This document shows positions 37,222-53,005 of a DNA stretch of 64,000 nt, in pieces. Every line of letters begins with the position of its first letter. The stretch's first letter is position 1. This DNA is from Xanthostigma xanthostigma. Its lineage: Eukaryota; Arthropoda; Insecta; Raphidioptera; Raphidiidae. The DNA lies in contig OY754464.1 of assembly GCA_963575645.1 (NCBI GenBank), forward strand, positions 30,643,501 through 30,707,500, read 5' to 3'. The notes under the pieces were generated by a model. It did no database searches, was not told the DNA's origin, and saw nothing but the letters and a program-made list of their open reading frames with translations. The position numbers and the translations under genes are program-made.

Positions 37222-39770
37222 CTCGCAAACTAACATGTAGTTCTGATTTTTTAATATATTGTTAGGACCACTACCAGTAGCGTATATCCAAGTTTGCAGC
37301 TTCGAAAGACCTGTGCTAACTTTGCAGCACTCAAAAAACTGCGAAATTTTCGCACTTTTTTTGGTATTCTCAATATAGGTCTTAAACTATGCATTTTTTT
37401 ATAAAATATTTTTTATACGTTTTTAAGTAGACTAAAATTGCTACAATCTGAGACAAGAACCAGCTCTGTAGGTTCAATACTTACCGAGATACAGCTTTCC
37501 AAAAATTGACCAGTTTTTTCAACAAAGTGAAATTTTAAGATTTGGTCAACTTTTGACCCCGATATCGGGGAAAATACTCATTTTAAGGGAAATATCATAG
37601 GAACATATTTTGTAGCAAATGTAATTAGCTTTAATTTAAGCAGAGAACGACGTCTGTAGGCCATATAGTTTACTCACAAATTTTAAAAATCCAAAAAATG
37701 AAAAAACTGCATTTTTGCAAATTTAAATTTAATACCTAATAATCGTTCTGTAAATCCATTCAGTGATTTTAATGTGGTTGAGTAACCAAATTGAGTAGCA
37801 TAGTAGCATAAACGATTAACATAATAAGAAAAATAACATAATTGATAACATCATAAAAAAATTATGCAGTTTTATACAAAATACCGTCGTATTTCAGCCA
37901 TTTTGTAAAAAATATTTACAAATTATATTCATAAACCTTCCTCGTTTATCGCTCTTTCTATTACCGAAAACAATTTCAAAATCCGGTGCGTGGTTTAGTA
38001 GAAGAGAGCGGAGAAAAAGACAGAGACTTTGTTTTTAACTGTGCAGTCTTTGACAAAATACCGTCGTATTTCAGCCATTTTGAAAAAATATTTACAAATT
38101 GTATACAGAAAGCTTCCTCGTATATTGATCTTTCTATTAGCGAAAACCATTTCAAAATCCGGTGCGTGGTTTAGAAGAAATGACCGGTGAAAAAGACAAA
38201 GACAGTCAGAGACTCTGATTTTAACTATGTAGGCTTTGCTAAAATTCCGTCGTACTTCAGTTATTTTGTAAAAAATATTTATAAATTATATACAGAAACC
38301 TTCCTCGTTTATTGCTCTTTCTACTATCGAAAACCATTTTTAGGTTCGGCGCATGGTTTAGAAGAAGTGAGCGGAGAAATAGACCAAGACAGACAGAGAC
38401 TGTTTTTAACTATGCAGTCTTTGACAAAACAACGTCGGTGTTCTTCTAAACTATGCGCCGGATCGTAAAACGGTTTTCGGTAATAGAAAGAGCGATAAGC
38501 AAGGAAGGTTTCTGTATATAATTTGTAAATAGTTTTTACAAAATGCCTGAACTACGACAGTGTTTTAGCTCAGACTGCATAGTTAAAAATAGAGCTTCTG
38601 TCTGTCTTTGTCTTTTTCTCAGCTCACTTCTTCTAAGCCATGCGCCGGATCTAAAAATGGTTTTCGGTAGTCGAAAGAGCAATAAACGAGGAAGGTTTTT
38701 GTATATAATTTATAAATATTTTTTACAAAGTACCTGAACTACGACGCAATTTTAGCAAAGACTACATAGTTAAAATCAGAGTCTCAGACTGTCTTTGTCT
38801 TTTTCACCGGTCATTTCTTCTAAACCACGCACCGGATTTTGAAATGGTTTTCGCTAATAGAAAGATCAATATACGAGGAAGGTTTCTGTATACAATTTGT
38901 AAATATTTTTTCAAAATGGCTGAAATACGACGGTATTTTGTCAAAGACTGCACAGTTAAAAACAAAGTCTCTGTCTTTTTCTCCGCTCTCTTCTACTAAA
39001 CCACGCACCGGATTTTGTAATTGTTCTCGGTAATAGAAAGAGCGATAAACGAGGAAGGTTTATGAATATAATTTGTAAATATTTTTTACAAAATGGCTGA
39101 AATACGACGGTATTTTGTCAAAAACTGCATAATTTTTATGATGTTATCAATTATGTTATTTTTTTTATTATGTTACTCGTTTATGCTACTATGTTACTCA
39201 ATTTGGTTACTCAACCACATTAAAATCACTGAATGGATTTACATAACGATTACTAGGTATTAAATTCAAATTTGCGAAAATGCATTTTTCTCATATATTG
39301 AATTTTTAAAATTTGTGAGTAAACTATATGACCTACAGACGTCGTTCTCTGCTTAAATTAAAGCTAATTACATTTGCTACAAAATATGTTCCTATGATAT
39401 TTCCCTTAAAATGAGTATTTTCCCCGATATCGGGGTCAAAAGTTGACCAAATCTTAAAATTTCACTTTGTTGAAAAAACTGGTCAATTTTTGGAAAGCTG
39501 TATCTCGGTAAGTATTGAACCTACAGAGCTGGTTCTTGTCTCAGATTGTAGCAATTTTAGTCTACTTAAAAACGTATAAAAAATATTTTATAAAAAAATG
39601 CATAGCTTAAGACCTATATTGAGAATACCAAAAAAAGTGCGAAAATTTCGTAGTTTTTTGAGTGCTGCAAAGTTAGCACAGGTCTTTCGAAGCTGCAAAC
39701 TTGGATATACGCTACTGGTAGTGGTCCTAACAATATATTAAAAAATCAGAACTACATGTTAGTTTGCGAG
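37222..39770. mobile_element. 2.55-kb foldback element with tandem repeats in its arms
   Basis: Outer ends CTCGCAAACTAACATGTAG (37222) and its exact complement (to 39770). Arms of about 1.2 kb pair from 37222-38432 with 38545-39770. The outer 650 bases of each arm are single-copy; the inner part is made of units of about 176-185 bases, each with CCGTCGTATTTCAGCC, CTTCCTCGTTTATCGCTCTT and TCCGGTGCGTGGTTTAG. The loop (about 38433-38544) is itself a partial inverted unit. The two arms encode the same 62-codon frame (37986-38174 and 38820-39008), which repeats the tandem unit and is unlikely to be a protein. No clear target duplication. Confidence 0.88.
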
Positions 39771-43989: not shown

Positions 43990-44465
43990 AGTTGGTAACC
44001 GAACTATCAAAGTTGGTACCAGCTGCAATCTAGCCGCTCTTGAAAAAATGGGTCTTGATAGATCGACAACAAACTGATCCTATGAAAGTTTCATTTAAAT
44101 TAAACTTAAAACAACCCTTGAATAACTAAATACGATTATCTATGCGTTTTTTAAATGCGGTTTTCGTATATGGTTTGTTCTTTAAAAAATATGATTAATA
44201 GGTCAGAAAAGTTGAATTTCTATATTCAAAGATAATTATAGGCGAGAGGAATTTATTGAAGTGTACGCAAACGATAATTGTATATATTACTGAGTATAAT
44301 ACTGTACCGAAAAGTGAAAATTTCTAAAAGCACACAATCACTTATTCAGCCCGCAATCTGATCTCTTCCCTCGCTTCAAATAAATAAAATAGATACCAAT
44401 CTCATTCAAGTTGTTATTTTGCCCATTCGTGTGACTGGACATTATTATTAATATTAGTCTTTATA
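43990..44465. other. spacer, no gene seen
   Basis: AT-rich. Nothing recognisable before the DIRS end. Confidence 0.4.
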
Positions 44466-44514
44466 ATTTTATGATCAAAGGAACTTACCTAAGTGATCTT
44501 CGATCATAATTTTA

Positions 44515-44650
44515 TGAGAGTATTTTCCGAAGAGATCAGTTACTTGATAGATAAGCCTTCTGCTTGATGTTGCCACAGTGTTTAAATCGTGTAGAAACAA
44601 AATCTATGGTGTCCCTACACATTGCTCCACTCTGTCTACATCTCCATTAT
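44515..44650. repeat. DIRS terminal inverted repeat, 3' side
   Basis: About 130 bases that are the near-exact complement of 49855-49990, for example CTGCTTGATGTTGCCACAG here. Confidence 0.92.
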
Positions 44651-44732
44651 AGTTGAGAGCTGAGAAAAATCATAATATTCGCAGCCTTATAACTTCCACA
44701 GGGGAAGAAGAATGCGTTCGGGTAGGGAGGGA

Positions 44733-44850
44733 TACTGATCTCTTCGGAAAATACTCTCATAAAATTATGATCGAAGATCACTTAGGTAAGTTCCTTTGAT
44801 CATAAAATTTTATTTCGAGTATTTTCCTCAAGATCAGTTACTTGATAGAT
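44733..44850. repeat. DIRS internal complementary region
   Basis: The first half (GATCGAAGATCACTTAGG) complements 44470-44540; the second half (TTTCGAGTATTTTCCTCAAG) complements the right extension near 49960-49993. In DIRS elements this region templates restoration of the ends through a circular intermediate. Confidence 0.9.
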
Positions 44851-45134
44851 GTTTAAAGCAAAGAAGTTTTAAGGCGGAGAGCGAATATTTTATACTTTAT
44901 TACACTCACCGCCATATTTAAACAATCTGGTATAGACCTATATATTATAAAGGTGTATAATGTATATGTATTTAACATTCTTATTTAAGGTAAATAAAAA
45001 AATAACAGTCTATTTCTCTTGACTAAATCACATAAATTATCACATTTAACATTTCTAAAGTGATGTTAAAGCAATTTAAAAAAATAACAATAATTCTTTT
45101 TCTTTAATCACATAAGTTACCATATTTGGTCATT

Positions 45135-45572
45135 TTACTTATTTTTGGTGGATTGCAAAATTGTTTTTGCAAATTCTAGGTCATTTCCTACAATAGGTCT
45201 ATTGTAGAATTTTGCGAAGGAACAAGACGACCTTGTCCATCCTGCTGTTTTCCTTATAATGTCTATATTAATGCCCTGTCTCTCTGCTAGAGAGGTTGAA
45301 GCATGTCTAGTGCTATGGGCGGAAAAAATATTTGTATTAATTCCGCTGTCCTCTAGTGTTTGTTTAATCCACCGGCTGATACTTTGACTAGAGGCTGCGT
45401 GATATGGTCTTTTGAATGTAATAAATAGTCTATTAGCGTGAGATCTAATATTCTTAGTCTTATTCATGTACCCCACTAGAGCCGTTGCTGGACAAATGTT
45501 AGGGTTGTCCGTAAAGTCTGGAACTCGTAACAAAGGTTGAAATCTACCCAGGCCAGTGGCCTTAAATTTTTC

Positions 45573-45621
<49 letters not shown>

Positions 45622-46311
45622 CTCTAACGTTTCGTTACATATTGATATATTATCTATATTGATAAGGAAATAGTTTGTACTCTCTGAGCTGTACACAGAG
45701 ATAGTAAGGTTACTGTTTTCTTGGTTAAGACTTCTAGGTTTAAACTTTCATTAGGCGAAAGTGCCTAAGTGTTCTAGCACTGGCGATGGGTCCCAGGTTT
45801 TTTCGTATTTCGGTTTTAAGGGTCTTAAATTAAAGGCCCCCCTAAAGAATCTCTTTATTGTGGGATCAGAACCTACTTCCGGACCCATAATCATTGACAA
45901 TGCTGATCTAGCGCCGTTAAGGGAACCATATGCAGCTCCATTACTGAACAGTTCATTTAAAAAATTAATAAGAGCGGCGTCTAGTGTGTACGGACTAATT
46001 TGACATTTATTACAGTATATTTACCACTTACGTAAGTAGAGGTCGTATTGTTTAGCTGTAGCGTTGGATATTGAAGCTATGATGACCTCAATGCTGTGTT
46101 TAGAATGGCCCTTTCTTAGATATGCCGTGCTGACAACTTCGCGGAAACCAGGGTAAGCTTGTAAAGTTTTCATAATCATAGAAAAATGGCGGGAAAGCAT
46201 AGAAGTAAAAATTTTTCCCATTTTTGTAAACGCATCTACTGCGTACGATTCTGGATCCTTTTTCCAAGATACGAATTTTGAGCACTTTTTATTTATTCTA
46301 GAGGCAAACAA
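45135..46311 (-). pseudogene. tyrosine recombinase part of the DIRS fossil
   Basis: The C-terminal portion shows HSTRHASTS (the HxxR box) and AKFYNRPI with the candidate nucleophilic Tyr, the pattern of DIRS recombinases. The N-terminal portion near 46021-46311 has WKKDPESYAVDAF, a phrase typical of the RNase H-recombinase boundary in this group. Broken; a long T-run (45575-45619) lies within it. Confidence 0.8.
45575..45619. repeat. 45-base T homopolymer
   Basis: Uninterrupted T on the plus strand (A on the element's coding strand), inside the recombinase part. Length in the source genome may differ because such runs are read poorly. Confidence 0.9.
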
Positions 46312-46479
46312 GTCTATTTCTGGTTTACCGAAACAACTGACAATCTTTTTGAAAATGTCTGGGTGTATTTCCCATTCAGTTTCGATTTTTGTTCTACCTG
46401 GCTCAAAATCAGCCTCTTTGTTTTCTTTAGATTGGATATACGATGCAAATATCCAAATATGTCGATGTTCTCACCAACT

Positions 46480-47448
46480 CTAAATTTTTCGGGCTAAGTT
46501 GTTTAAGTTTGGGAATTGGATACCGCCCATACGATTCACATAAGCAATCGCTGTTGTGTTATCGACACGAAGTAATACCTCGCAGTTTTTTAAGTCCTTT
46601 GTGAAGCATTTAATTGCGAGATATACCGTTAGCATTTCCAAATAGTTGATATTATGACGCCAATAAAATGAGCAAGTTTTCTTATAGAACACTGTCTTCG
46701 TTCTTTGAAATGTCGTATTAAAAGAAATATTTTATTTCTTTTTTCCTGCGGAATGCCCAATGTAGAAGTTTGTGAGTTTAATTCAAACCCAAGAAATGTA
46801 CAAACTCTACGAGGGGTCGTTAGACTTTTTTCAAAATTAATTATAAACCCTAGTGACTGAAGTAACTTGGAAGTGAAGTCGATATTATCTTTGCATTGTT
46901 CTGCCGTACTTTCTATTATTAGAAAATCATCCAAATAATTAACTGAGATACAACCACGTGATCTTAAATATGTAAGTACTGGTCTCGTTAACTTTGTAAA
47001 TACGTATGGAGCTGAGGCCAGGCCAAATGGTAGACAATTGAATTCATACAAAATGTCTTGAAAAGAGAATCTAAGGAATTTTCTATGACCCTCATTTATA
47101 GGTGTAACAAAAATATGAATCTTTCAGATCTATTGTGCTAAAATAGCAATTTTTTGAAATTAATTTTATCGCAGTCCTAATGTCCTCCAACTTAAAATGT
47201 TTCGTGTTTCGAAAGGTATTTAGATTTTTTTTTAAAATTAAAATAAATCTGTTACTGCCATTTGGTTTTGGCACCACGAAGATTTTTGATAGGTGCTGAC
47301 CCACAGTAGGCTGACATTTTGAAATGGCACCCATTTCAAGTAGCTCATTTATGCAGTTATTAATTTTTCGAGTATCTAGTTTTCTTTGGATCTTACTAGC
47401 TCTGATAATGTTGTTCCCAGAGCTGAGACTGTCGCACTTATTTGACAC
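46480..47448 (-). pseudogene. reverse transcriptase and RNase H part of the DIRS fossil
   Basis: RT landmarks: NCLPFGLASAPYVFTKLTRP and VNYLDDFLI with the YLDD active-site box (near 46930). RNase H landmark: VLLRVDNTTAIAYVNRMGG, the Asp-containing strand of DIRS-type RNase H (near 46550). Order and spacing fit the family. Broken. Confidence 0.85.
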
Positions 47449-47469
47449 TGTCTTTCGTTCAACTTTTTA

Positions 47470-47760
47470 TCTCTGTTGACCACGGTCTCCGAGATCGTAG
47501 CACTCCTTCGATGACGTCTTCCACAGGTTCCTGATCAGGAAATAGTTTTAGTTCATCTCCGTCTGGCCCTTCACTGAGGGGGTATTCCGGATACTCGTAT
47601 TCGCTGTAGGTGACACTAGAGTGACTGCTATTGGTGATTGACTGAATGAATGATTCATTATTGTCTATGGAGGTGTTTCCTGAAACTAAACCAGGCTTGC
47701 TTAGTTCCTGATGTTTAATACCGAAGTATTGTATGTTTACTGTCTTTTACAGTTATCTGG
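47470..47760 (-). pseudogene. gag-like remnant of the DIRS fossil
   Basis: An acidic stretch including LSEGPDGDELKLFPDQEP lies directly upstream of the RT part, where DIRS elements carry their first open frame. At the far 5' end (about 49700-49795) a short Lys/Glu-rich coiled coil (KRKAEEKIRKLKKGLNKYEE) may belong to the same frame. Broken and incomplete. Confidence 0.45.
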
Positions 47761-47802
47761 GTCTAGGTGATCAAGATTGACAATTGATTTGGAAAATGGG
47801 TA

Positions 47803-49250
47803 GATGTCACACATCTAACATGTCCGCCGCGCGGAACATGCTTAGCCAGTAGTGTATTGTAGGTAGATGTCACACATATAACATGTCCGCCACGCGGAAC
47901 ATACTTAGCTAGTACTATATTGCAGGTAGATGTCACACATCTAACATGTCCGCCACGCGGAACATGTATAGCCAGTACTGTATTGTCGGTAGTTGCAATA
48001 GATGTAATGTACATCTAGCATAACCTTAGCAAGGTGTATGCTTTTCGGTATTGTAGTTGATAGATGTCACACATCTAACATGATCGTAACACGATACATG
48101 TTTGTTACCGAACAGTAGTTGCAATAGATGTAATGTACATCTAGCATAACCTTAGCAAGGTGTATGCTTTTCGGTCTTGTAGTTGATAGATGTCACACAT
48201 CTAACATGATCGTAACACGATACATGTTTGTTACCGAACAGTAGTTGCAATAGATGTAATGTACATCTAGCATAACCTTAGCAAGGTGTATGCTTTTCGG
48301 TATTGTAGTTGATAGATGTCACACATCTAACATGATCGTAACACGATACATGTTTGTTACCGAACAGTAGTTGCAATAGATGTAATGTACATCTAGCATA
48401 ACCTTCGCAAGGTGTATGCTTTTCGGTATTGTAGTTGATAGATGTCACACATCTAACATGATCGTAACACGATACATGTTTGTTACCGAACAGTAGTTGC
48501 AATAGATGTAATGTACATCTAGCATAACCTTCGCAAGGTGTATGCTTTTCGGTATTGTAGTTGATAGATGTCACACATCTAACATGATCGTAACACGATA
48601 CATGTTTGTTACCGAACAGTAGTTGCAATAGATGTAATGTACATCTAGCATAACCTTCGCAAGGTGTATGCTTTTCGGTATTGTAGTTGATAGATGTCAC
48701 ACATCTAACATGATCGTAACACGATACATGTTTGTTACCGAACAGTAGTTGCAATAGATGTAATGTACATCTAGCATAACCTTAGCAAGGTGTATGCTTT
48801 TCGGTATTGTAGTTGATAGATGTCACACATCTAACATGATCGTAACACGATACATGTTTGTTACCGAACAGTAGTTGCAATAGATGTAATGTACATCTAG
48901 CATAACCTTCGCAAGGTGTATGCTTTTCGGTATTGTAGTTGATAGATGTCACACATCTAACATGATCGTAACACGATACATGTTTGTTACCGAACAGTAG
49001 TTGCAATAGATGTAATGTACATCTAGCATAACCTTCGCAAGGTGTATGCTTTTCGGTATTGTAGTTGATGGATGTCACACGTCTAACATGATCGTAACAC
49101 GATACATGTTTGTTACCGAACAGTAGTTGCAATAGATGTAATGTACATCTAGCATAACCTTCGCAAGGTGTATGCTTTTCGGTATTGTAGTTGATGGATG
49201 TCACACATCTAACATGATCGTAACAGATACATGTTTGTTACCGCTGCATC
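47803..49250. repeat. 63/126-bp hairpin tandem array
   Basis: Three 63-bp units (47803, 47866, 47929) precede a transition unit and then ten 126-bp units (phase marker TAGATGTCACACATC at 48061, 48187, 48313, 48439, 48565, 48691, 48817, 48943 and the variant TGGATGTCACAC at 49069 and 49195). Each 126-bp unit is two diverged 63-bp halves. Every half has a short hairpin (GATGTCACACATC or GATGTAATGTACATC) and a longer one: TCCGC-loop-GCGGA, TCGT-aac-ACGA or CCTT-agc/cgc-AAGG, framed by CATG or GCAT/ATGC. Since 126 is divisible by 3, one minus-strand frame stays open with a 42-residue (2 x 21) Cys/His-rich repeat. A degenerate single unit recurs at 49464-49500. Confidence 0.92.
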
Positions 49251-49854
49251 TTGATAGACCTCCTTGGTGTTTGGACATAAAATGTCAGTGTTGTATAGTT
49301 GACTATACTTGGCTCCTACTCTTCTTAGACCTCATAGGAAATGCGTCATTCGCCACACAGAGGTTATGTGAACTTGTTCGATGTAAATCGCCGACGAAAG
49401 AGCACTGTTTAACGTATCGCACAGGAAACCGGAACCTGCTTAGCCAGTACTGTATTGTAGGAAGATGTCACACATCTGTAATGTCCGCTACGCGGAAAAA
49501 ACTTCTCCAATACTATATTTTGCCAGTACTATATTGTTGGAAACATATTGCGCTCCCTCTCATTTTTGACCTCACAGGCTACAACTGCATAACTGTACAG
49601 TGTACATGGTCTAAGGTCTGTGATATGACAGCAGTGTATGACAGGTTATGTCGCAAATTGAACTATTTGTAGTTGCATAGAAAACGATCATGCGATGTTT
49701 TCTCACCTGATTTTTCTTTTTCCATTTGTTCCTCGTATTTATTTAGTCCCTTTTTCAATTTTCTTATTTTTTCTTCGGCTTTTCTTTTGCCCATCCTGAA
49801 GATTAAAGGTGAGAAGAAAAAACACTGTAAGCAACGCGTCGCACAGAAAACCGT

Positions 49855-49990
49855 AATGGAGATGTAGACAGAGTGGAGCAATGTGTAGGGACACCATAGA
49901 TTTTGTTTCTACACGATTTAAACACTGTGGCAACATCAAGCAGAAGGCTTATCTATCAAGTAACTGATCTTGAGGAAAATACTCGAAATA
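49855..49990. repeat. DIRS terminal inverted repeat, 5' side
   Basis: Complement of 44515-44650; ends in CTTGAGGAAAATACTCGAAA. Confidence 0.92.
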
Positions 49991-49994
49991 AAAT

Positions 49995-50646
49995 CATGTA
50001 TCTATATGTTATACATTTATTGGTCGCTGTGGCTATATTCTATAGCTCTACATTGCCCTAGCCTAACTATAGCGGTGCTACTATGCACAATATCATATTG
50101 TAACAAAACTGTTCTTGTTCGTGGTGGAAAATATTTATTTACAATAGTGAAACGTTAACAAAACAAATAAACAAACTAAAAGCACTTCTCTATAACGTAA
50201 TAGAAACAAAACAACAAATTCTAACTAATAAAATAAAAGAATATAAGTAATAAAGAATACAGAGTCACTATTTATGTACACTAAACACTATAGGACTATA
50301 TACAAGGGATTATTTATGTCAAACTAGATTTATATAATTGAAATCAATGGTCTGTTAACCACTCCGCACTATTTATTTCGCGCACTGTTTATTTACAGAG
50401 TTCATTTATCTATTTATCTCAGCAGTTACCTCAGTACCTACTGTTCACTGTACTGACTGTCAATTTATGTCACAACTATTTGTCAATTATTAATTTGATG
50501 AAGCACAAATACTGAGCTATCACGGTGGTATACCTATATATATGCGCTGGATAATTCTTTTTTTTCTTATATTCATTGTTGCCTGGAATTTGGCAACAAA
50601 GCCATTTTTTACCTACGCATATTGTTATTGTTTGAGCAATCAGGCC
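49995..50646. other. spacer, no gene seen
   Basis: AT-rich; ACAAA-rich stretch at 50150-50230. No coding signal. Confidence 0.4.
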
Positions 50647-50815
50647 GATTGTTGTCCCACAACAATCCGTGTGTCATTGTTAGAATAACAATCCGATTGT
50701 TGCCCCATAACAATCTGGGTATCATTGTTAGAAAAACAAGCCAATTGTTGTCCCACAACAATCTGTGTGTCATTGTTAGAATGACGAGCTGATTGTTGTC
50801 TCACGAAATTCTTTG
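50647..50815. repeat. 48-bp tandem repeat, about 3.5-4 copies, each with a hairpin
   Basis: GATTGTTG marks unit starts at 50647, 50695, 50743 (AATTGTTG) and 50791. Each full unit holds GATTGTTGTCCCACAACAAT, an 8-bp stem with a 5-base loop, and CATTGTTAGAA. The stem is kept in the third unit although its first base differs. Confidence 0.88.
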
Positions 50816-51668
50816 TCGTCGCCGGCTGGGAGGTCTCTGTTACAATATTTTATATTACTATACTCTAATAATAATTACAGCCTCCGGCAACAGCAGGTAT
50901 TTGTACCTGTACGATGTAGGTATACCTGTAATCAAACAGGTAGACTTTTTTCCTTTATTTTTTATAACATTAAAATACAATTAGTATGAATAATGATGTG
51001 ATTAATAACTTGTTTTTATTTACCTATCACGTTATATTATAACAATATAATATTTAAACACATTGAGATTAAAAATATAGAAGGAATTTGAACTATCATA
51101 GATCTGTTACTCTTTTTGTCCGTCATATTAACAAGTTGGCAGTTTTTTTTAATTTATAGCATGTTTAAATGTATATTCAATAACACTTATATATAATTGT
51201 TATCCAGTGTTATTATACTCTATAGTTTCTTCCAAATATATTATTATATTAAAAAAAACTATAGAGTATAGAGGTTCGAATTCCAATGTAGGCTTTATCT
51301 ATTACTTATTCAATCTGCTGAGAATAGACAAATGTACCAGCCAAGTTGATTAATATTTTCTATGGGTTTCTTTTTTAATTCCAGATAAATGTCGCCATTG
51401 TTTCTTGTACAAGGCTTTGGAGATAATTTCAATTTCTAAAATATAAAATAAGAGGCATCTGTGATGATATAACGCTGGGAAAATCATTTTTGTCGTATTG
51501 AATGTTTTAATTAAAAAAGAGCCAAGAGAACGATTGCAAAATAAGTGTGGGTCAAAGAATGGGCAAGGTACTTCAACAAACCCATATTTATCTTAAAAAC
51601 ATGGTGAAAATAAGTCAAGGCGGTCTTATACATTGGATTCAAGTGTCACTCAATTTTTCAATAATATT
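50816..51668. other. spacer with one hairpin
   Basis: TATACTCTATAGTTT near 51214 pairs with AAACTATAGAGTATA near 51255-51270, directly followed by GGTTCGAATTCC, which resembles a tRNA T-loop/B-box. No A-box or cloverleaf was found, so this is not called as a tRNA. Confidence 0.45.
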
Positions 51669-52999
51669 AGTATAAGAGCCAGTGATCGGCTACCAGTATG
51701 TATTTGACCAGACCTGAATTTTTACACAGTGAGTCTCCTATACCTACCATACATGGAGTGGGGACTCACTAAGCCCGGAGTGGCCGCCGCGGCCCGTACT
51801 CAGGTGCGACAGGTACAAAATTTGACTAATTTTCAAAGTATTTGACCACGTCTGCCATTTGGAAATTTAATAATATATTATTATTGCTATTGAAAAATAA
51901 CAATGGCAGACCATTATCGCGCGACAATCATCGTGGAAGACAATTTTTTAAGTACTAAAAATTATGAAATTTTGAAAGGTATATTTTTCATTACGGATTA
52001 TTATTCTATTTATTATTTCAAGCAAGTTTCGTAAATAAAATTTTTTTCTAAACTTTATAGTTCCGAAAATATTTAGAAAATTAAAAAAAAATCAGCTGCT
52101 CTTTTGTCTTGTAGATCTGTCAGAAATAAACTAGTTAAGCAAGCTTTGATTAATTTTTACATGACGTGGAATATATTTTGTAGGTGACCAAGACAACGAA
52201 TAGCAAATATCATATTGAATACTAGCCATTACCCGCGTCAAATCACGCGATATCAGAAATGTTATTTTCTTTATTTTACTATATCAAATGTCAATATTTT
52301 TGAAGTTGGAATGGTCCCGTCGCCCAATTGGTTGGAATTTTTTATTTGTTCCAAAACAAAAATAAAAAATCAAGAGAATATAAAAAATTATTTATGCCTA
52401 TACCTATAAGCAATATTTTTATTCTCACTTGACACTTTTTAATTTTGTTTTGGAACAAATAAAAAATTCCAACCAATTGGTCACCTACAAAATATGTTCC
52501 ACGTCATGTAAAAATTAATCAAAGCTTGCTTAACTAGTTTATTTCTGACAGATCTACAAGACAAAAGAGCAGCTGATTTTTTTTTAATTTTCTAAATATT
52601 TCCGGAACTATAAAGTTTAGAAAAAAATTTTATTTACGAAACTTGCTTGAAATAATAAATAGAATAATAATCCGTAATGAAAAATATACCTTTCAAAATT
52701 TCATATTTTTTAGTACTTAAAAAATTGTCTTCCACGATGATTGTCGCGCGATAATGGTCTGCCATTGTTATTTTTCAATAGCAATAATAATATATTATTA
52801 AATTTCCAAATGGCAGACGTGGTCAAATACTTTGAAAATTAGTCAAATTTTGTACCTGTCGCACCTGAGTACGGGCCGCGGCGGCCACTCCGGGCTTAGT
52901 GAGTCCCCATTCCATGTATGGTAGGTATAGGAGACTCACTGTGTAAAAATTCAGGTCTGGTCAAATACATACTGGTAGCCGATCACTGGCTCTTATACT
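51669..52999. mobile_element. 1.33-kb foldback element, near-identical arms
   Basis: Arms 51669-52191 and 52477-52999 (523 bases each) are almost perfect complements; outer ends AGTATAAGAGCCAGTGATCG and its complement. The 285-base loop contains a second, inner inverted repeat (CAATTGGTTGGAATTTTTTA near 52324 and its complement near 52460) plus about 120 bases of unrelated sequence with ACTAGCCATTACCCGCGTC. Each arm has a GC-rich patch (GAGTGGCCGCCGCGGCCCG). No protein coding. No clear target duplication. Confidence 0.92.
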
Positions 53000-53005
53000 A
53001 TATAG

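Follow-up and report, generated by a model that had tools for sequence, protein, structure and literature searches.

A tandem array of hairpins in the predicted gag intron of a DIRS retrotransposon of Xanthostigma xanthostigma: a candidate cis-acting element of genomic RNA

Why should the units of a tandem array differ in sequence while nearly all of them keep the same kind of hairpin? The question is raised by an array of about 1.4 kb in the genome of Xanthostigma xanthostigma (assembly GCA_963575645.1, contig OY754464.1), lying in a stretch of 64,000 nucleotides that was analysed as a whole and is called the window below (positions 30,643,501 to 30,707,500, forward strand). A preliminary description of this DNA had counted about 23 subunits of 63 bp in three sequence classes, each with its own inner stem, and more than 40 hairpins, and this picture is borne out. 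From repeat analysis and stem counts, the array occupies 47800-49243 on the minus strand and has 23 units of 63 bp. It opens with three class A units (47800-47988), after which C and B units alternate in ten C+B dimers of 126 bp each (47989-49243), the last B unit being shortened; a degenerate class A unit, 63% identical to the first A unit, stands apart at 49460-49542 (minus strand). On the plus strand each unit is composed of a plain hairpin, hp1, and a hairpin with a single-base bulge, hp2, giving the total of more than 40 small hairpins. In classes A and B hp1 reads TAGATGT-CAC-ACATCTA and in class C TAGATGTA-ATG-TACATCTA, and it is exact in 20 of the 23 units. The second hairpin has an outer stem, then one unpaired base whose position is the same in all three classes, and above it a five-pair inner stem closed by a loop of three bases. 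Its inner stem is TCCGC/GCGGA in 3 units, ATCGT/ACGAT in 9 and ACCTT/AAGGT in 10, i.e., it is kept in 22 of 23 units, the exception being the last B unit, from which some bases of the inner stem are missing. Rfam covariance models gave no match to 44000-50500 up to an E-value of 5, and a scan of viral_contigs with the class B core returned nothing.

The array is carried by a copy of a DIRS retrotransposon at 44462-49994, on the minus strand like all parts of the element named below, recognized by terminal inverted repeats and an internal complementary region and by the stop of similarity between copies at about 44462 and 49994. The 5' inverted terminal repeat (49849-49994) is 98% complementary to 44533-44654 over 49849-49970, and 100% complementary to 44807-44850 over 49951-49994. 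The 3' inverted terminal repeat region (44462-44654) is defined by complementarity to the 5' repeat and to the internal complementary region (44734-44850); of the latter, 44734-44812 is 99% complementary to 44462-44540, and 44807-44850 is complementary to the 5' end. Coding remains comprise a reverse transcriptase piece at 46629-47123 (PF00078, E 1.1e-14), a weak Dam-like methyltransferase piece at 46021-46470 (PF05869, 19.3 bits, below the cut-off of 28.1) and a tyrosine recombinase piece at 45135-45617 (PF00589, 27.8 bits against a cut-off of 27.1, a narrow margin in a broken frame). In the window copy the tyrosine recombinase region contains a run of 45 T (45575-45619), at which alignments to most other copies break. 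A reverse transcriptase, a tyrosine recombinase in place of a DDE integrase, and inverted terminal repeats with an internal complementary region make the element DIRS1-like.

Matches of 99-100% to the initial 398 bases of the array occur at 40 or more places in the 623-Mb genome, counting the window. In the 21 main-family copies analysed (20 further copies and the window) the polymerase frame is broken, the open frame with the reverse transcriptase motif never exceeding 180 residues; in a relative, L029, this frame is open for 282 residues to the end of the fetched piece. The window copy has in addition lost about 294 bp internally at 46642-46656, with 15 bp common to both sides, as judged against nine copies with both sides listed. 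The preliminary description had placed the array near the 5' end of a DIRS fossil. The DIRS host and the 5'-side position, in what is predicted below to be a gag intron, stand; the word fossil does not, because copies that are 99-100% alike indicate a young element, and the main family is, on this evidence, a recent burst of defective copies, which probably moved in trans. It had also been asked whether other arrays of this kind always sit in DIRS elements, and wherever the surroundings were examined (L009-L029, L031, L032 and the window) every array was found within a DIRS copy. Among the best candidates scored, class A units were found only in L029 and in main-family places, and the stretch 49244-49445 in 40 places, all of them main family and near kin; a free satellite is disfavoured by this confinement. 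Other repeats in the window include a 48-bp tandem array of 3.4 copies just beyond the 5' end of the element (50644-50804), whose unit has a hairpin GATTGTTG-TCCCA-CAACAATC, an inverted repeat with 524-nt arms, 99% complementary and 285 nt apart, that looks like a foldback element (51668-53000), and two oppositely oriented blocks of repeats of about 187 bp (37863-39131). An open frame on the plus strand at 55582-56247 matches DUF7869 (PF25273, E 2.7e-07).

Within the element, the array looks like part of an intron, as predicted from consensus donor and acceptor sites and a kept phase. Predicted exon 1 of gag (49707-49794, MGKRKAEEK..., 88 nt) is short and basic and ends in phase 1 at TCAG/GTGAGAAA; the predicted intron, GTGAG...AAAAGACAG, spans 1967 nt (47740-49706) and contains the array; and the acceptor, AAAAGACAG/TAAAC, restores the frame of the predicted exon 2 piece, the remainder of gag (47459-47739), which is an open frame and continues in the same frame in L029. 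No obvious pyrimidine tract is seen at the window acceptor. All 21 main-family copies, and L029 as well, have both the donor and the acceptor string; in L031 and L032 just the donor string is seen. Six other DIRS families, obtained from a reverse transcriptase search (L033, L034, L035, L036, L037 and L040), were compared, and a short basic exon 1 followed by a donor-like site occurs in all seven families, with the donor in phase 1 in 7/7; donors were picked by eye before their phase was computed, and acceptors by eye with the acceptor phase computed for the window family only. A copy derived from spliced RNA was sought through the 22-nt exon join, which was not found in the genome within one mismatch; at two mismatches, the uncut acceptor accounts for 43 of 51 matches. 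A relative, L030, has the same first exon and has lost the middle of gag together with the intron. The unit lengths, being multiples of three, could also point to a repeated segment of the Gag protein, of 21 or 42 residues, and in L029 one frame indeed runs through the class A array without a stop for 265 residues. The window frame, however, stops in the C units with an AGC loop, both loop types occur in every copy counted, and chance alone will often leave some frame of a 21-codon repeat open, so that a protein repeat is disfavoured as highly improbable.

It had been proposed that the fold has been kept rather than the sequence, and that paired columns should be compared with a shuffled background. 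Covariation was scored on 24 of the 25 distinct hp2 variants observed, the one in the shortened B unit being excluded. Standard pairs make up 90.2% of 264 cells, 41 cells carry a change in both partners, and the covariation score reaches 0.434. None of 500 shuffles matched any of these three values, and slid pairings gave 26-49% paired cells and between 2 and 11 two-sided ones. Nothing unusual was seen in two further measures, namely how many pairs show two-sided change (6 of 11, equalled in 123 of 500 shuffles) and how many further pair types occur (equalled in 487 of 500). This signal sits between the three classes, and only three class sequences carry it in the window. Within classes, among 24 loci, no constraint was seen: variants hit stems as well as spacers, and recent ones break stems freely. 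The idea that differences inside a class fall mainly in the loop has accordingly to be given up, the common loop variant being found only in class C. Such stem variants argue against strong constraint during the recent spread, when copies were already defective. Selection on the fold appears partly supported: the proposal holds between classes, where paired change exceeds shuffles and slid pairings on most measures, and fails within them.

The main rival to a role of the fold in RNA is that the array has no function: a hairpin-rich unit would have been amplified by slippage of the reverse transcriptase or by unequal exchange, and its arms would have been matched by template switching, one arm being copied onto the other. 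We regard this as quite possible, if on the whole doubtful. Array length varies by 126-bp steps, the 20 copies (of 21) with both anchors having between 19 and 25 units (one with an extra 3-bp change), the lack of constraint within classes fits as well, and hairpins with two-sided changes are known to arise and persist by template switching, as described in the available part of one report (PMC8794818). Repair of one arm from the other should, however, erase the bulge too, yet the bulge stands in A, B and C.

A second feature that amplification would not predict, though with three classes the cases are few, is the complementarity of partner units B and C. In folds of the array a helix forms between units, TTCGGTA of C pairing with TACCGAA of B (9 exact copies each), and at the same place class A has a palindrome, CAGTACTG, with a variant, TAGTACTA, that is altered on both sides; further variants of the class A palindrome keep one G-U or break the pairing. 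Adjacent units are, by predicted pairing, able to contact each other in both kinds of array, through self-complementarity in A and partner complementarity in C-B, and the latter may be the reason why the long repeat is of 126 rather than 63 bp. The array folds exceed chance (z -1.2 to -3.6 as RNA, z -3.4 to -5.3 as DNA). The 126-nt dimer reaches z -3.1 to -3.6 as RNA and z -4.8 and -5.3 as DNA; the single class A unit is the weak case, with z -1.2 and -2.3 as RNA and z -3.4 and -3.5 as DNA.

Folds that are equally good on either strand and with DNA parameters are what would be expected of an element acting as DNA, for instance inverted repeats serving as recombinase, promoter or host-protein sites. 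The one-sided variants agree, in that they have no clear strand bias: 9 distinct G-U events fall on the strand of the element, 6 of them in hp2 and the other 3 in the palindrome, and 6 on the opposite strand, 3 each in hp2 and hp1, with hp1 and palindrome being counted in class A only. A direct binding site should nevertheless hold its sequence, and here the sequence changes while the pairing stays; the ends used by the recombinase, moreover, are at the termini and not in the intron. A role at the DNA level appears rather improbable.

The same intron in other DIRS families was examined for hairpins as well. In L034, whose reverse transcriptase is 45% identical, the intron has six CAGCAG sites, and 5/6 of them lie within a bulged hairpin, CTAGC-C-CAGCAG-G-c-GCTAG. 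These hairpins show two-sided change in 3 of 6 pairs with 30/30 cells paired, and their covariation score was reached by 2 of 500 shuffles; a conserved fold with compensatory change is seen in L034 and between the window classes, not within classes. L036 and L048 are 91% alike over 1040 columns, and their intron includes an unchanged run of 85 nt with two hairpins that have a core GTCAYATGAC, a U bulge and differing lower stems. Given 32 differences in 253 intron columns, the chance of such a run is about 1e-4 within the intron; over the whole alignment the longest unchanged run is one of 87 nt in the leader, a length reached by 37 of 2000 shuffles. Folded alone, the 85 nt have z -2.9; the first hairpin forms in that fold, and the bases of the second pair differently. 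A genome search for the first hairpin allowing up to three mismatches found it exactly at 11 places, once with three mismatches and never with one or two. L035 has two like bulged hairpins, which are suggestive only, and the introns of L033, L037 and L040 have no informative hairpin repeat.

Counts under a strict definition of the bulged hairpin, which leaves the L034 hairpins uncounted since their upper stem is too short, give 23 in the window against 0.33 expected and 8 in L029 against 0.14, both inflated by tandem copies; none in L034, L040 and L033; and one each in L035 (50 of 200 shuffles had as many), L036 (12 of 200) and L037 (14 of 200). Nor are introns uniformly more structured than exon 2: on the element's strand their fold energies range from z -1.3 to -8.2, against z +1.4 to -3.0 for that exon, the values of L037 coming from a 16-bp array and those of L040 from a TA run. 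Such a 16-bp tandem array is present in the predicted gag intron of both L037 (1494-1861, about 23 copies) and L039 (1817-1912, about 6 copies), where 4-bp hairpins are possible and the copies are too alike for a covariation test. Bulged hairpins in the predicted gag intron thus appear to be supported in three of seven families and hinted at in one, with three not in favour. The hairpins that L034 and L036 have in this intron, unrelated in sequence to those of the window, and the unchanged block of 85 nt, would not be predicted from functionless amplification, and slippage on a structured template, which the preliminary description had offered as another possible origin of the array, fits the 126-bp length steps and alone leaves the kept bulge, the B-C complementarity and the hairpins of other families unexplained.

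The L049 group bears on a further possibility, namely an effect of the structure on splicing or export; it might, for instance, restrain splicing so that enough unspliced RNA stays. The position of the array between predicted donor and acceptor would suit such a role. L049-L057, the nine of the 11 exact places other than L036 and L048, are copies of a coding-dead DIRS subfamily and nearly identical over the stretch compared, except that L055 has its 5' part replaced; their donor reads GC in 9/9, and exon 1 is shortened by a common frame change in 8/9, while L048 has lost its start codon. The 85-nt block is nevertheless unchanged in 11/11 copies, those with the GC donor included, which speaks against a role in splicing or export without being decisive, as a GC donor can still splice; we consider such a role unlikely. 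Fisher tests on the block concern a region picked post hoc and copies that cannot be counted as independent (the comparison of L049 with L048 alone has p 0.09), and for this reason the run statistic within the intron is relied on instead.

Some light on how the array of the window family came about is shed by L029, in which about 12 units, all of class A, make up the array. The C-B array of the window family, together with a stretch resembling the leader of another DIRS lineage, L030 (49385-49434 on the minus strand, 86% over 50 nt to L030 and 75% over 44 nt to the leader of the window element itself), has class A units on either side, and the A-C join preserves the 63-bp register. The simplest account would be that copying switched between two RNAs, which would require both to have been in one particle.

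Taken together, the array may be a cis-acting RNA structure that belongs to the unspliced genomic RNA and has been multiplied in tandem; it would be similar to a packaging or dimerization signal and lie in the gag intron. This is the reading that we favour, tentatively and with somewhat less than even confidence. Splicing would remove the array from the Gag messenger, so that only the full-length RNA, the template of new copies, would keep it, and the hairpins would label that RNA for the element's own particle through binding of Gag, RNA-RNA pairing or both. A packaging-like role is favoured because shape is kept while sequence changes, because the units are repeated and make contacts with themselves or with partners, and because the array is absent from the predicted spliced RNA and survives in copies whose coding capacity is dead. 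The array, the paired change between classes, the complementarity between units, the splice context and the hairpins of two other families are read from the sequence, and from them we infer splicing, RNA as the folded molecule and a role in packaging or dimerization. A cis-acting RNA would be consistent with the paired change of hp2, the kept bulge, the helix between units, the phase-1 introns of 7/7 families, the hairpins of L034 and of L036-L048 and the search for an intronless copy, which found none. Against it stand a signal that comes from three class sequences only, stems that are unprotected within classes and the lack of a clear strand bias, together with the uninformative introns of L033, L037 and L040, the mere hint in L035 and the fact that the longest unchanged run of L036-L048 is in the leader. 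In a wider form, which is put forward with more reserve, the DIRS gag intron could be an address label of genomic RNA, made of bulged-hairpin modules that are fixed in shape, free in sequence and spliced out of the Gag messenger; in the window family it would have been amplified to 23 units with helices between them, and the arrays of two lineages would have been recombined in register, as expected if their RNAs were co-packed.

No account of how tyrosine-recombinase retrotransposons select their genomic RNA was found in the open-licence literature, and a predicted phase-1 gag intron in 7/7 families, with bulged hairpins well supported in three, would provide a concrete, testable candidate. 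With its three unit classes, the window array is a natural place to test whether paired change comes from selection or from template-switch repair.

Introns in some DIRS or Ngaro elements may reportedly have been mentioned earlier, and novelty is claimed for the structured array and the intronic hairpins, not for introns as such. The element shares with DIRS1-like retrotransposons its reverse transcriptase, tyrosine recombinase, inverted terminal repeats and internal complementary region, and differs in its predicted gag intron and hairpin array, which go without mention in the available text of PMC3266345 and PMC9210276, where the words intron, tandem and hairpin do not occur. An intronic hairpin array in DIRS was likewise not found in the literature on these elements, as far as the accessible portions extend (PMC3266345, PMC5633606 and PMC9210276 included). 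Retroviral packaging and dimerization signals also consist of structured hairpins and palindromes near the 5' end, partly in or beside gag, according to the excerpted text of PMC5035971; the same excerpt places the packaging sequence of Rous sarcoma virus upstream of the splice donor, so that an intronic place is no rule for such signals, which counts against the proposal made here. In barley, as the available part of PMC3735527 describes, BARE1 and BARE2 offer a parallel to the proposal: a spliced RNA serves Gag and another RNA packaging, and the parasitic BARE2 has no Gag and has lost its splice signals while keeping those for dimerization and packaging. BARE is an LTR retrotransposon with experimentally tested RNA pools, whereas the window element, a DIRS element with a tandem array of 23 units that sets it apart from the retroviral signals as well, is known from sequence alone. 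Finally, satellite-like arrays spread by a mobile element are known from oyster Helentrons, and one oyster satellite is annotated as LTR/DIRS (in the accessible parts of PMC7492417 and PMC8268682, respectively); what distinguishes the present array from those of the Helentrons is its DIRS host, its place in a predicted intron and the paired change of its hairpin arms.
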